Source: Paludibacteraceae bacterium (lineage in GTDB: Bacteria > Bacteroidota > Bacteroidia > Bacteroidales > Paludibacteraceae). From it: a DNA stretch of 43,919 nucleotides. A program made the translations under genes and the position numbers. The stretch spans positions 1-43,919 of the forward strand of contig JAFOFC010000027.1 in assembly GCA_017387515.1 (NCBI GenBank). The letters run 5' to 3'. The first letter of the stretch is position 1. Each line of letters begins with the position of its first letter. Positions 8,770-14,563 of the stretch are shown one piece after another. The notes under the pieces are model-generated. The model was not told the DNA's origin. It searched no databases and was given only the letters and a program-made list of their open reading frames with translations.

Positions 8770-10077
8770 TTATTCCCATTCGATGGTTGCGCTTGGTTTT
8801 GGCGACATGTCGTAGCAAACGCGGTTTACGTTGGGAACTTCGGCCAAAATACGTTTGGTAATTTTGTCTAAGATAGCCCAGTCAATGTGCTCGATGGTTG
8901 CGGTCATGGCGTCGATGGTGTTTACGGCGCGGATAATTACTGGCCAATCGTAGCTGCGTGCGTTGTCTTTTACACCTACCGATTTAAAATCGGGAACGAT
9001 GGTAAAGTATTGCCATACTTTTTTGTCTAGGCCTGCAAGGGCAAATTCTTCGCGCAAGATAGCGTCCGATTCGCGTACGGCTTCTAAACGGTCGCGGGTA
9101 ATAGCACCCAAGCAACGAACACCCAAACCAGGACCAGGGAAGGGTTGGCGATAAACCATTTCGTAAGGCAAACCTAATTCCAAACCGCAAGCACGAACTT
9201 CGTCTTTGAATAGTTGGCGGATAGGCTCTACCAATTCAAATTGCAAGTCTTCTGGCAAACCACCTACGTTGTGGTGCGATTTTACCATTTTAGCGGTTTT
9301 GGTACCACTTTCTACAATATCAGGATAGATGGTGCCTTGACCCAAGAAGTCGATGCCGTCTAGTTTGCGTGCTTCTTCTTCAAATACGCGGATAAATTCA
9401 CCACCAATAATTTTACGTTTTTCTTCGGGATCTTCTACGTTTTCTAGTTTAGTTAAGAAACGTTCGGTAGCGTCTACATACACCAAGTTAGCGCACAATT
9501 GTTTGCTGAATACGTCTACAACGGCTTCCGATTCGCCTTTACGCATCAAGCCGTGGTTAACGTGAACGCAAACCAAGTTTTGGCCAATGGCTTTTAAAAG
9601 CAAGGCTGCTACCACAGAACTATCTACACCACCCGAAAGGGCCAAAAGCACTTTGCGGTTGCCTACTTGTTGACGAATCAATTCAATTTGGTCGTTAACA
9701 AAGTTGGTCATGTTCCAGTTGGCTTCTGCACCGCAAGTATCAAATACAAAGTCTTTAACAGCTGCTTTAATGGCTTCTTCGTCATTTGTAAATTCGGGTA
9801 GTTTAACATCGCATAATGCTTTGTTGTGACCAGCAGCCATTACAGGGAATCCTGCTTGGTAAATTTCGGGTAAAACGTCAATTTCTACACCGTCAATTAC
9901 ATGGTTAGGACCACCATTGATGATAATGCCTTTTACATTAGGCAATTTTTGCAACTCGGCAGCAGTAATGTCGTGTGGATAAATTTCACTATAAACGCCT
10001 AAGGCGCGGATGGCTCTGGCAAGTACGGTATTTTCGTGGCTTCCCAAGTCCAAAATGACAATCATGTCTTGTTTCAT
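8770..10077 (-). CDS. guaA: Short GMP synthase with degenerate glutamine amidotransferase domain
   Basis: 435 residues, against about 510 for ordinary GuaA. Family role: XMP + ATP + NH3 (from glutamine) gives GMP. The ATP-pyrophosphatase half is intact, with the P-loop LALSGGVDSS (about 145-154), QGTIYPD, the RQPFPGPGLGVR block and the conserved C-terminus PSATIEWE. The N-terminal class I amidotransferase half keeps its first strands (VILDLGS, KGIIINGGP) and its last helix (FVFDTCGAEANWNMTNFV). The region between is collapsed: where the catalytic elbow GICYG should be the sequence reads VMAAGHNKAL (79-88), with Gly83 at the Cys position, and the catalytic His/Glu (HPE) segment is absent. The protein should therefore use free ammonia or a separate glutaminase subunit; this is inference. 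The frame is clean and the active-site half conserved, so it is not an obvious pseudogene. A second, full-length guaA elsewhere is possible. Confidence 0.9.
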   Translation of the reverse strand: MKQDMIVILDLGSHENTVLARAIRALGVYSEIYPHDITAAELQKLPNVKGIIINGGPNHVIDGVEIDVLPEIYQAGFPVMAAGHNKALCDVKLPEFTNDEEAIKAAVKDFVFDTCGAEANWNMTNFVNDQIELIRQQVGNRKVLLALSGGVDSSVVAALLLKAIGQNLVCVHVNHGLMRKGESEAVVDVFSKQLCANLVYVDATERFLTKLENVEDPEEKRKIIGGEFIRVFEEEARKLDGIDFLGQGTIYPDIVESGTKTAKMVKSHHNVGGLPEDLQFELVEPIRQLFKDEVRACGLELGLPYEMVYRQPFPGPGLGVRCLGAITRDRLEAVRESDAILREEFALAGLDKKVWQYFTIVPDFKSVGVKDNARSYDWPVIIRAVNTIDAMTATIEHIDWAILDKITKRILAEVPNVNRVCYDMSPKPSATIEWE

Positions 10078-10122: not shown

Positions 10123-10130
10123 CAAATTTA
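10123..10130 (-). promoter_or_regulatory. Candidate -7 box for guaA (TAAATTTG)
   Basis: The minus strand reads TAAATTTG, matching the Bacteroidetes TAnnTTTG -7 consensus, 45 nt before the guaA start. No clear TTTG -33 element lies at the expected distance. A 7-bp inverted repeat (TATCGTA at 10180-10186, TACGATA at 10195-10201) lies further upstream, in the divergent spacer shared with the glycosyltransferase gene. Confidence 0.45.
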
Positions 10131-11484: not shown

Positions 11485-12590
11485 GTAAAAAACAGCAAGT
11501 AGATACCACAGAGCAAACCGTAAAAAAAGGCCTAAATACCAAGCACATTGTGTGGCCGGTTTTATTTGGCTTGATTGGTATTGTTTGGATGATATACAAT
11601 GAATTTTCGCAGTTGGGCGATTCTCCTGTGCCCCTTAGCCATTACATTACAAATACCACCATTTGGTTTTTGTTGTTGTCGGTGGCCTTGATTGTGATTA
11701 GAGACCTTTCGGGCATGGGGCGTTTGTACTTGTTGGCCGATAGAAAATTAGGCTTTGGCGCTTTGTTTCGCATTAGGATGTTGTACGAGTTTACCTCGGC
11801 CGTAACCCCATCGGCTGCAGGCGGTTCTACCTTAGAAATGATTTTTATTAACCGCGAGGGTATCTCGTTTGGCAGAAGTACGGCTATTTGTATCATGTCG
11901 TTGTTTTTAGACGAACTTTCGTTGGTGCTTCTTTTTCCATTGGTATTTTTATTTTTCCCCATTGATATTTTCTTTCAAGTAGCGGGCGAGGCTTCGGCTT
12001 CTATTGCCTCGTTGTTTGCCATTGGCTATTTTGCTAAGTTGATATGGGTTACTATTTTGTTTGTGGGAATTTTTGTAAAACCCCAAGTGATATCGTGGCT
12101 TATTAGTCGTATTTTTTCTATTAAATGGCTTAAAAAGTGGAAGTTTAAAGCTTTTAGAACGGCTGTCGATATCAAGGCTTGCTCTAAAGAAATGCGTCAT
12201 AAATCGGCTGGCTTTTTTATTTCTAATATACTGCTTAGTATGCTGTTGTGGGTGTCGCGTTTCTTAATTGTGAATGCGCTTATTATGGCCTTTGTAACGG
12301 CATCCGATTCGTTAACCTTTGTGGATCAGGTAATTATTGCTGTTCGCCAAGGCATTGTATTGGTGGTTATGATGATAGCACCTACACCTGGTGGTAGCGG
12401 ATTTATCGAAGTGATGTTTGAGTCGTACCTAGGTGAATTTATCCCAGTGGGCATGGTGTCGCTTATCATTGTATCGGTATGGCGTATGCTTACTTACTAC
12501 AACTACTTAATTATAGGGGCAATTATTACTCCCAAATGGATTGCCAAACATTTTTCGCGCAAAAAACAAGACGATAAGGAGGAAAACTAA
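11481..12590 (+). CDS. YbhN/UPF0104 (AglD-like) multi-span membrane protein
   Basis: 369 residues with about seven to eight hydrophobic segments (about 26-46, 60-80, 140-165, 185-210, 235-262, 285-310, 320-345). The family's conserved region is present as EFTSAVTPSAAGGSTLEMIFINREG, with its P-x-x-x-GG core, and a second G-rich P-TPGGSGFIEV motif near the C-terminus. This is the lysylphosphatidylglycerol synthase transmembrane/UPF0104 family; members act in lipid or lipid-linked sugar handling. No catalytic LPG-synthetase domain is attached. The start overlaps the GT4 stop (ATGA), and the stop overlaps the umuD start by 1 nt (TAATG), which implies translational coupling across the operon. Confidence 0.82.
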   Translation: MSKKQQVDTTEQTVKKGLNTKHIVWPVLFGLIGIVWMIYNEFSQLGDSPVPLSHYITNTTIWFLLLSVALIVIRDLSGMGRLYLLADRKLGFGALFRIRMLYEFTSAVTPSAAGGSTLEMIFINREGISFGRSTAICIMSLFLDELSLVLLFPLVFLFFPIDIFFQVAGEASASIASLFAIGYFAKLIWVTILFVGIFVKPQVISWLISRIFSIKWLKKWKFKAFRTAVDIKACSKEMRHKSAGFFISNILLSMLLWVSRFLIVNALIMAFVTASDSLTFVDQVIIAVRQGIVLVVMMIAPTPGGSGFIEVMFESYLGEFIPVGMVSLIIVSVWRMLTYYNYLIIGAIITPKWIAKHFSRKKQDDKEEN

Positions 12591-13009
12591 TGATTCCGCA
12601 TCGTATTGATACAGCTGCCGAGGCCCAGTTTACGCTTTGTGGCGATGTAAAAGCGGGTTTTCCGTCGCCTGCCGAAGATGTAGGTGAAAAATTAGACCTC
12701 ATTCAACTCTTGGTGCGACACAAGGCTTCTACCTTCTTTTTTAGGGTTAGCGGTGTGTCGATGGTAGATGCGGGTATGGACGAGGGCGATATTATCATTG
12801 TAGACCGTAGCCTGTCGCCTTACAACGGATGCAAGGCGGTTTGCTATTTAGATGGCGAATATACAGTTAAGGCGGTAGAGATTGCCGATAAAACCGTTCG
12901 TTTGTTGCCTGCTAATCAAAACAACGCTACCTATCATCCCATAGAAGTAACGGCCGATAATCAATTTGCCATTTGGGGCGTGGTAACCTACGTTATCAAA
13001 AAGATGTAA
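12590..13009 (+). CDS. umuD: UmuD-like S24 autoprotease, error-prone polymerase subunit
   Basis: 139 residues, the usual UmuD size. A short N-terminal arm carries the cleavage dipeptide Ala22-Gly23 in KAGFPSPAED. The nucleophile Ser57 lies in FRVSGVSMVDAGMDEGD and the general-base Lys94 in YTVKAV. RecA filaments trigger self-cleavage to UmuD', which joins UmuC as DNA polymerase V during the SOS response. The start codon overlaps the stop of the upstream membrane-protein gene, so it is transcribed with the GT4 gene unless an internal promoter exists. I saw no obvious LexA-box-like palindrome at its 5' end. Confidence 0.93.
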   Translation: MIPHRIDTAAEAQFTLCGDVKAGFPSPAEDVGEKLDLIQLLVRHKASTFFFRVSGVSMVDAGMDEGDIIIVDRSLSPYNGCKAVCYLDGEYTVKAVEIADKTVRLLPANQNNATYHPIEVTADNQFAIWGVVTYVIKKM

Positions 13010-13035
13010 TGACTCGGGCGTTGCCCTCGTGTCGC

Positions 13036-13061
13036 AAGTCGAAAGTCGAAGGTCGAAGGTC
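13036..13061. repeat. agtcgaa/ggtcgaa tandem octamer run
   Basis: Four degenerate 7-8-mers based on agtcgaa. The 22-nt stretch 13036-13057 recurs in the same orientation at 25374-25395, in each case a short distance before the larger dispersed repeat. Confidence 0.6.
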
Positions 13062-13100
13062 AACTCACCAAATCACCGAATCACCGCATCACCAATAAAT

Positions 13101-13222
13101 TCGGGCACTTTGATATTTCTTTTGCGACTCGGCATAATCAATGCTGGGCACTTCGACAAGCTCAGTGACCGCATTGCTTCTGCTCTCGCTGCTCAAGAAA
13201 CTCGACAGGCTCAGTGACCGAA
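13101..13222. repeat. Dispersed intergenic repeat, copy A (between umuD and umuC)
   Basis: 122 bp almost identical to 25706-25828. It holds an inverted stem (CAATGC 13139-13144, GCATTG 13171-13176) enclosing CACTTCGACAAGCTCAGTG, flanked by cggcata on one side and tctgctctcgctgct on the other. A second, partial core (actcgacaggctcagtgacc) follows at about 13200-13219. The 294-bp umuD-umuC gap (13010-13303) consists largely of this element plus caccgatt-type short repeats; I see no gene in it. Confidence 0.88.
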
Positions 13223-13303
13223 TTTGGTTTACCGCCTCACCGATTCACCGATTCGCCGATTATTCACATTCGTTCATCAACACGTCACCGATTCGTCAAT
13301 AAT

Positions 13304-14563
13304 ATGTTCGCTCTTGCCGATTGTAATAACTTTTTTGTGTCGTGCGAACGGGTTTTTAGACCCGATTTAAACGGCAAACCCGTTATTGTGCTCTCTAATA
13401 ACGATGGGTGTGCTGTGGCACGTAGCAACGAGGCCAAGGCATTGGGCATAAAAATGGGCGACCCCTTGTTTAAAATACGGCATTTGGTACAAAAGCACGG
13501 GGTGGCAGTATTTTCGGGCAATATGGCCCTGTATGGCGATATGTCTAGGCGTGTTAGGCAAACCTTGCAAGATTTCTCGCCCATGGTAGAGGTTTATTCT
13601 ATCGACGAGGCTTTTTTAGACTTGCGTGGGTTGCTAATTGATGATTACGATGCCTACGCCAAGACCATTGCTAAACGTTGTTATCAGTACACGTCTATTC
13701 CTGTTTCTGTAGGCATAGCCCCTACTAAAACCTTAGCCAAGATAGCTTCTAAATTGTGCAAGCAATACCCCAAACTACAAGGTGGTTGCTTTATGCATCG
13801 TCCCCAAGATATCGAAAAAGTGCTGCGTAAATTTCCCATAGGTGATGTGTGGGGGATAGGCCGTCAGTCTACCCAAAAATTATTGCAGTTGGGGGTTGGA
13901 ACGGCGTATGCGTTTACCCAACTGTCCGAAAGTAAGGTGCGGCAATTAATGGGAATAAATGGGGTTAGAACCTGGAATGAGTTACGCGGCGTACCTGCCG
14001 TATTGTTTGAAGAAACCCCAGAGGTGCGTAAATCAATTTGTGTGTCGCGCAGTTTTGCTGCCGAACTATACGATTGCGCTGCGTTGAGCGAACAAGTGGC
14101 TAATTTTGCCATGAAAGGGGCAGAAAAGTTGCGTCGACAAGGTTCGTTGTGCGCCGAGATGACGGTGTTTGCGTATACCAATCGTTTTAAAGAAGATGTG
14201 CCCCAAACCATGGGTAGCAATCTGGTTTGTTTTACCACACCCAGCAACAATCAGCAAGTGATTGTATCGGCTGCTGTGCAGGCTACCAAAGAACTATTTT
14301 GTAGTGGCTATGGGTACAAAAAGGCAGGGGTGGTGTTTACCAAGTTGCAAGACGCTGCGCATACCATGTATTCGCTTTTTGACGATGCCCAAGATAGAGA
14401 GAAGCAACAGCGCTTGTCGGTAGCCATGGATGCCATTAGAAATACCTATGGCAAGCATGCTTTAACCATTGCCTCACAAGGAACTACCAAAGAATATTCC
14501 CTTTCAGAGAACCAGTCTCCACATTATACTACCTTGTGGAGCGATTTGCCTATTGTAAAGTAG
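13304..14563 (+). CDS. umuC: UmuC-like Y-family DNA polymerase
   Basis: 419 residues from the ATG at 13304. An earlier in-frame ATG exists at 13214, but its extra 30 residues are translated repeat. The palm starts MFALADCNNFFVSCERVFRP with metal ligand Asp6; SIDEAFLDL supplies Asp101 and Glu102. The steric-gate Phe region (NFF), helix-hairpin-helix (IGDVWGIGRQSTQKL) and little-finger domain follow, so the polymerase is complete. It is the translesion catalytic subunit that works with UmuD'. Unusually, it is separated from umuD by 294 bp of repeat DNA rather than being adjacent or overlapping. Confidence 0.95.
   Translation: MFALADCNNFFVSCERVFRPDLNGKPVIVLSNNDGCAVARSNEAKALGIKMGDPLFKIRHLVQKHGVAVFSGNMALYGDMSRRVRQTLQDFSPMVEVYSIDEAFLDLRGLLIDDYDAYAKTIAKRCYQYTSIPVSVGIAPTKTLAKIASKLCKQYPKLQGGCFMHRPQDIEKVLRKFPIGDVWGIGRQSTQKLLQLGVGTAYAFTQLSESKVRQLMGINGVRTWNELRGVPAVLFEETPEVRKSICVSRSFAAELYDCAALSEQVANFAMKGAEKLRRQGSLCAEMTVFAYTNRFKEDVPQTMGSNLVCFTTPSNNQQVIVSAAVQATKELFCSGYGYKKAGVVFTKLQDAAHTMYSLFDDAQDREKQQRLSVAMDAIRNTYGKHALTIASQGTTKEYSLSENQSPHYTTLWSDLPIVK

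Follow-up and report, generated by a model that had tools for sequence, protein, structure and literature searches.

Textbook amidotransferases carry their own glutaminase because the level of free ammonia inside cells is considered low. In the two-domain bacterial GMP synthase GuaA (NF000848, PDB 1gpm), a GATase domain with a catalytic Cys and an HPE motif accompanies the ATPPase and dimerisation domains; we take this glutamine-hydrolysing enzyme to be EC 6.3.5.2 and the ammonia-dependent GMP synthase to be EC 6.3.4.1. Vertebrate carbamoyl phosphate synthetase I, which is ammonia-dependent, keeps its glutaminase part with the Cys replaced by Ser, and subunit B of the archaeal GMP synthase (PDB 2dpl, 6jp9) is an ATPPase chain without a built-in glutaminase. 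According to excerpts of the respective sources, ammonia supplied from outside can serve two-domain GMP synthases and ATPPase subunits in vitro (PMC10526850), P. falciparum GMP synthase keeps ammonia-dependent activity when its catalytic Cys is mutated to Ala, and its ATPPase domain on its own still works with ammonia, the kcat being 5.9-fold lower (PMC4673825); an E. coli CTP synthase variant that has lost its glutamine-dependent activity is almost fully active with NH4Cl (PMC9138612). The single-domain NadE, an N-type ATPPase, amidates an adenylated substrate with free ammonia, and in Table 1 of a 2012 survey this form without glutaminase accounts for 44% of 886 genomes, while for guaA, pyrG, asnB and carAB no form lacking the glutaminase is listed there (PMC3376133). 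Searches of open-licence PMC papers, with passages of PMC9312489, brought up no description of a glutaminase-free GuaA or of ammonia-using amidotransferases of Bacteroides, and earlier reports elsewhere are possible.

The short GuaA described here lies in a window of 43,919 nucleotides, the whole stretch of DNA that was analysed. It shares the ATPPase and dimerisation domains, the PP-loop, the lid motif, the C-terminus and the first part of the GATase fold with two-domain GuaA, from which it differs in having lost ~77 GATase residues along with the catalytic Cys and HPE motif. It resembles archaeal subunit B, which aligns to its residues 125-435, in being an ATPPase chain without a glutaminase; unlike the archaeal two-subunit enzyme, it retains a conserved piece of the GATase, and a search of five genomes (G000, the window's own, and G007, G013, G079 and G080; G, C and L numbers denote our genomes, contigs and loci) found no GATase subunit for it. 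The logic would be that of NadE, and a NadE-like frame of 277 residues (named by eye) occurs in the window's genome too.

A short GuaA with a collapsed GATase half

A clean open frame of 435 codons on the minus strand (8770-10077) encodes the short GuaA, a protein of 435 residues in which the frame, the profile matches and solved GuaA homologues place intact ATPPase and dimerisation parts behind a collapsed GATase part. It scored 539.5 bits against NF000848 for GuaA (cutoff 400) and matched TIGR00884, for the C-terminal part of GuaA, over its full length with 454.2 bits (cutoff 338.75), which bears out the conserved ATP-pyrophosphatase half and C-terminus reported in the preliminary description. 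The sequence features expected of the synthetase part of a GMP synthase were present: complete ATPPase and dimerisation parts, the PP-loop SGGxDS and the lid motif. In alignment A1 of 43 short proteins, the PP-loop SGGVDSS of the ATP-pyrophosphatase domain (residues 148-154; 9616-9636, minus strand) was invariant, as were V265, K266, H268, H269 and N270 of the lid-loop motif VKSHHN (residues 265-270; 9268-9285, minus strand), whose general form is IK[TS]HHN and whose role is described in an excerpt of PMC10526850. The GMP synthase C-terminal domain PF00958 was matched completely (8776-9051, minus strand). Upstream of the gene, 53 bases before the ATG, TAAATTTG (10123-10130, minus strand) is a candidate Bacteroidales -7 box, the consensus of which we take to be TAnnTTTG; the motif occurs 73 times on the two strands of the window and is weak evidence.

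The GATase half gave a different picture. TIGR00888, which covers this part, was matched at positions 1-74 of 188 only, with 47.8 bits against a cutoff of 172.15, so that the class-I GATase domain is both incomplete and below cutoff, and Pfam GATase (PF00117) was matched at model positions 1-76 of 190 only, by residues 7-80. A phmmer search of the PDB aligned residues 5-84 to positions 9-87 and residues 77-435 to positions 165-525 of 1gpm_A, presumably E. coli GuaA, and this two-part alignment indicates that an internal GATase stretch is missing. The spacing from the nucleophile elbow to the PP-loop was 65 residues in 65 of the 83 short proteins and 60-68 in all of them, compared with 141-142 residues in full-length GuaA (46 of 55 measured). 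When the 83 short proteins were aligned jointly with 38 of the 55 full-length proteins, 77 columns were missing in the short form, 44 after window residue 88 and 33 after residue 103, in agreement with the shortening by about 80 residues that had been noted before. Between the two sites of this ~77-residue loss, which includes the His/Glu motif, lies a collapsed, variable segment (residues 89-103; 9769-9813, minus strand).

The catalytic Cys was absent from every short protein. Residue 83 (9829-9831, minus strand), which stands in the alignment at the place of the catalytic Cys in GuaA glutaminases, is Gly and falls within VMAAGHNKAL (residues 79-88). This position held Cys in 0 of the 83 short proteins (G 61, D 16, S 2, A 2, E 1, N 1). 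Full-length homologues contained the GxCxG elbow by pattern in 54 of 55 cases, the remaining one reading AICYGAQ by eye, and the HPE motif in 55 of 55; the letters HPE occurred within the first 140 residues of a single short protein (L103, not the window's), outside its GATase stretch. These results confirm that the elbow has become VMAAGHNKAL without a Cys and that the His/Glu motif is gone, and the collapse proved to be conserved across the 83 short proteins. A replacement nucleophile at the elbow was rejected, as the position has no conserved residue (G, D, S, A, E, N).

What is left of the GATase half, an N-terminal remnant of residues 1-88 (9814-10077, minus strand), was delineated by the PF00117 match, dN/dS and conservation in the 83 short proteins, and the match to residues 7-80 upholds the statement that the first part of the fold is retained. 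Some of its invariant residues are common to full-length GuaA (for example D10, G12, S13, R21, R24, E31, G50, G55 and P78), and others are peculiar to the short form (N16, T17, H35 and D36). For residues 1-80, dN/dS was 0.00 against G013 and 0.04 against G007, similar to the values of the ATPPase and C-terminal part (0.03 and 0.05). The segment of residues 81-120 was looser against G007 (0.11) and G009 (0.16) and not looser against G013 (0.01). The GATase remnant is under purifying selection, and a dN/dS on a par with that of the ATPPase part indicates that it is kept for a reason.

Distribution, copy number and origin of the short form

Within the window's genus, the short GuaA was found in 5 of 16 genomes: the window's own, G013 (98%), G007 (94%), G009 (86%) and G005, where it is split over two contigs. 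A scan of the collection yielded at least 591 loci with relatives, and the best 80 of these were all of the short form (80/80), at 76-92% identity. They include Bacteroides fluxus, clarus, cutis, faecis, oleiciplenus and congonensis, Parabacteroides goldsteinii, Robinsoniella, Longibaculum and Lachnospiraceae, with isolates among them. The window's assembly is fragmented, with 81 contigs, which might suggest an assembly or sequencing artefact, but the presence of the short form in 80 of the 80 best loci of other genomes, isolates included, rules this out, and a dN/dS near zero does the same for a decaying gene; both readings are already refuted. The short guaA is an old paralogue in Clostridia and Bacteroidales, a feature of a large, horizontally spread clade that is not particular to the window's sequence. 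Of the earlier proposal that a precise internal collapse had produced a functional variant, the functional variant therefore stands, whereas the collapse taken as a recent local event does not, the form being old and clade-wide. The short GuaA also occurred on two putative plasmid records, NZ_OY725961.1 and NZ_OY725764.1 (Bacteroides finegoldii and Parabacteroides distasonis), both of which annotate it as a glutamine-hydrolysing GMP synthase. A phage search returned 15 records, all below 60% identity.

In a tree of the ATPPase part (30 of the 83 short and 55 full-length proteins), the short proteins lay on one side of a single branch with support 93, a branch that was not starred; the Clostridia rows branched off first and the Bacteroidales were nested. 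This topology fits a single origin and later transfer, probably from Clostridia to Bacteroidales. Other members of the window's genus (L128-L131, L140-L142) have a GuaA of 608-644 residues whose GATase motifs are intact and whose branch is very long and deep. In the genus mate G012, the frame of the full-type GuaA is broken into two pieces of 342 and 272 residues.

A full-length guaA directly preceded the short gene in 7 of the 80 loci and stood one or two genes before it in the Clostridia loci L104, L112 and L113, and the short gene followed guaB in 11 of the 80 loci (guaB named by eye). In six loci mscL (named by eye) directly preceded the short gene with no full-length guaA between, while other Bacteroides show the order mscL-guaA(full)-guaA(short), so that these six loci look as if a full-length guaA had been removed; the genome of one of them (L046, G066) has a full-length GuaA on other contigs. 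Eight Clostridia loci (L101, L102, L104, L106, L107, L111, L114, L118) have a tyrosine-recombinase-like gene no more than a few kb behind the short guaA, which would fit a mobile element targeting the 3' end of this gene, and several of them add MobC-like and AAA-ATPase-like genes (named by eye).

We selected 50 genomes from the 80 loci and found the short GuaA as the sole copy in 31 and together with a full-length copy in 19, the sole-copy status coming mostly from MAGs. The short form stands alongside the glutamine-dependent enzyme in large Bacteroides genomes and alone in many smaller gut Bacteroidales genomes, including the window's. No other GuaA was found in the five short-GuaA genomes of the genus (completeness 78-91%); if gaps fall independently, a second GuaA that exists would be missed in all five with a probability of ~8e-5. 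The search for a second full-length guaA or a stand-alone GATase proposed in the preliminary description thus found none in the window's genome. PF00117 matches in that genome were PyrG, HisH (in a his cluster), the remnant in GuaA itself and a MetA-like protein below cutoff (named by eye); those in G007 and G013 were PyrG, HisH and the remnant only, giving no candidate for a separate GuaA-type GATase subunit among the matches of these three genomes (84-91% complete). Among the matches listed, G079 and G080 had one each, with E-values of 2.5e-8 and 6.6e-8, as weak as the remnant's.

Glutaminase sites of other amidotransferases

We compared the catalytic triads of CarA and PyrG between genomes with the short GuaA as their only GuaA (short-only genomes) and genomes with a full-length GuaA. 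Reading one CarA per genome, we found the triad altered in 19 of 19 short-only genomes and in 0 of 20 genomes that have a full-length GuaA. In 6 of the 19 the Cys was replaced by Ser, as in vertebrate carbamoyl phosphate synthetase I; unlike that enzyme, the CarA changes are bacterial, show several substitution patterns and stand alongside changes in other amidotransferases. The PyrG triad was altered in 13 of 19 short-only genomes and intact in the other 6, compared with 0 altered in 24 genomes with full-length GuaA (26 PyrGs), and the altered triads formed six residue sets (V/H/Q, G/N/E, G/Y/Q, C/L/Q, G/H/E and G/E/Q). The Cys was kept and the His or Glu lost in the CarA of G074, G085 and G097 and the PyrG of G072. 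Within the 50-genome set, among the matches listed, CarA was read in 19 of 31 short-only and 15 of 19 two-GuaA genomes, and PyrG in 15 of 31 and 19 of 19.

Fisher tests that ignore kinship gave 7e-7 for PyrG and 1.5e-11 for CarA. On the trees, the PyrG change amounted to four events and the CarA change also to four, three of them forced by starred branches. Independent pairs agreed with the association in 3 of 3 cases for CarA and 3-4 of 6 for PyrG, with none opposed (sign test p 0.25 and 0.125-0.25). The association of CarA and PyrG changes with the short GuaA has few independent contrasts behind it, and the pairs test is too small for significance.

In the window's genus, the PyrG of G000, G005, G007 and G013 read GIVLGMQ and FHPQ, whereas that of the five full-GuaA genus mates having a PyrG read GICLGMQ and FHPE. 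The PyrG frame of the window's genome (L186, G000:C78) contains one in-frame TAA; no such interruption occurs in G005 and G013, and in G007 the first 70 positions of the model are not matched. CarA was not found in any of the five short-GuaA genomes, each of which has one CarB, compared with two CarBs in 4 of the 5 full-GuaA members searched. Neither CarA nor PyrG was found in the full-GuaA members G002, G003, G004, G010, G014 and G015, and GlmS was not found in five of these six (G002, G003, G004, G010, G014). The CTP synthase domain PF06418 was not found in 7 of the 16 genus genomes (G002, G003, G004, G009, G010, G014, G015), one of which, G004, is 95% complete. Since full-GuaA genus mates also lack detectable CarA, PyrG and GlmS, these losses are not exclusive to genomes with the short GuaA.

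PurF began with MGGFFG, with Gly at the nucleophile position, in all five short-GuaA genomes of the genus. It was read in 24 of the 31 short-only genomes of the 50-genome set, 11 without and 13 with the Cys. Six genomes with full-length GuaA (G008, G011, G012, G090, G093, G102) have a PurF of ~470-500 residues with Gly for the nucleophile Cys (MGGFFG or MGGIFG), possibly an ammonia-dependent PurF paralogue, and G008, G011 and G012 have a Cys-bearing PurF as well. GlmS was not found in any of the five short-GuaA genus genomes, a weak match in G009 falling in the PurF frame. Among the Bacteroidales of the 50-genome set, AsnB-like proteins were present in 0 of 28 short-only genomes versus 8 of 11 two-GuaA genomes; the figures for GlmS were 1 of 28 and 7 of 11 plus one partial. 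Here AsnB and GlmS were separated by score and frame length alone, and the search may miss genes, as the isolates G069 and G092 with both GuaAs gave no GlmS and five genomes gave no match. A 546-residue asparagine-synthase-like frame without a GATase_6 match was seen by eye in the window's genome (L009, G000:C31). In sum, the CarA, PyrG and PurF sites are often lost in the short-only genomes read, and GlmS and AsnB were not found there, with exceptions.

Not every glutaminase has gone. In the genus loci read, PurL had an intact site (GICNGCQ and PHLER) in 15 of 15, and HisH was likewise intact in 4 of 4 of the short-GuaA genomes examined for it, so glutamine is still consumed at some steps in the cell. 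One contig of G012 (L381, L382; G012:C51:35500-66000) carries pyrG-carB-carA-glutamine synthetase III-ammonium transporter (amtB)-PII-dapL-dapF followed by gltB-gltD-asnB-glmS-purF, several of them named by eye. A gltD was also seen near asnB in several Bacteroides loci. Because several products of the G012 cluster are missing or glutaminase-dead in short-only genomes, loss of an island of this kind is a natural hypothesis.

Free ammonia as the proposed nitrogen source and competing explanations

We propose, at a probability of about 0.83, that the short GuaA is a working GMP synthase using free ammonia and that, together with the glutaminase losses in other enzymes, it reflects a lineage-level change to direct ammonia use. 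Direct use of ammonia was one of the options raised in the preliminary description, and it gains indirect support from the intact synthetase motifs, the conservation of the protein, its status as sole copy and the glutaminase-site losses in CarA, PyrG and PurF. Judging from known GuaA chemistry, the ATPPase domain would adenylate XMP with ATP, and NH3 from solution, instead of NH3 from glutamine hydrolysis, would displace AMP to give GMP. The N-terminal remnant would be non-catalytic and may serve as a docking or lid-stabilising element for the ATPPase. The switch would have taken place in an ammonia-rich gut. By analogy with the engineered P. falciparum proteins, the short enzyme may best be read as a natural version of a glutaminase-less GMP synthase.

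Two other options had been raised along with ammonia use. The short protein might recruit a glutaminase subunit in trans, as in the two-subunit GMP synthase known from archaea (described in part in PMC10526850), and its remnant could then be the docking site; but such a subunit would find its place taken by the remnant, and the PF00117 matches of G000, G007, G013, G079 and G080 included no extra GATase, which argues against a separate archaeal-type subunit and makes it very unlikely. Alternatively, a protein that coexists with full-length GuaA in 19 of 50 genomes might no longer be a GMP synthase and might aminate another nucleotide or act as a regulatory part. This new role is very improbable, as the protein is the sole GuaA in 31 of the 50, exceeds both GuaA cutoffs (NF000848, TIGR00884), keeps the PP-loop, lid motif and C-terminus, and is encoded after guaB in 11 of the 80 loci.

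A further explanation concerns the cause of the losses. Glutamine antimetabolites (DON, azaserine, acivicin) label the catalytic Cys of these glutaminases, and escape from them could have driven the loss of Cys-dependent sites, given that the Cys-glutaminases of GuaA, CarA, PyrG, PurF, GlmS and AsnB were lost or not found together. However, PurL, a main azaserine target, and HisH keep their Cys in the window's genus, and some sites keep the Cys and lose the His or Glu (the PyrG and CarA cases above), a pattern that points to plain loss of function. Although DON acts on the Cys of CTP synthase, as an excerpt of PMC9138612 states, we consider such an escape unlikely.

The change may extend beyond this enzyme. 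We give slightly better than even odds to a scenario in which some gut Bacteroidales reorganised a large part of their nitrogen transfer around free ammonia: they would have lost a G012-like nitrogen island, kept or acquired glutaminase-free synthesis of GMP, CTP, carbamoyl phosphate and phosphoribosylamine, and repeatedly broken leftover sites by point mutation, with larger Bacteroides keeping both sets as low- and high-ammonia systems. These odds are slightly lowered because CarA, PyrG and GlmS were also not found in several full-GuaA genus mates. The loss of glutaminases in several enzymes is more surprising than the short GuaA itself. A glutaminase-free GuaA in common gut genera, with relatives that have lost glutaminases in several pathways, bears on the nitrogen uptake of gut Bacteroidales and on metabolic models in which glutamine is counted as the nitrogen donor of these steps. 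Isolates with both GuaA forms (B. faecis, P. goldsteinii) make the ammonia idea directly testable.

No riboswitch or other known RNA scored above the Rfam gathering scores in the window. Neighbouring genes in the window encode DUF1573 proteins, MeaB, an Lrp/AsnC regulator, a glycosyltransferase, an LPG-synthase TM protein, a peptidase S24 and an IMS polymerase; a functional link between them and the short guaA was rejected, as none has an evident nitrogen link. At 12590-14563, the peptidase S24-like gene is followed by the IMS (Y-family) polymerase gene, forming a UmuDC-like pair.
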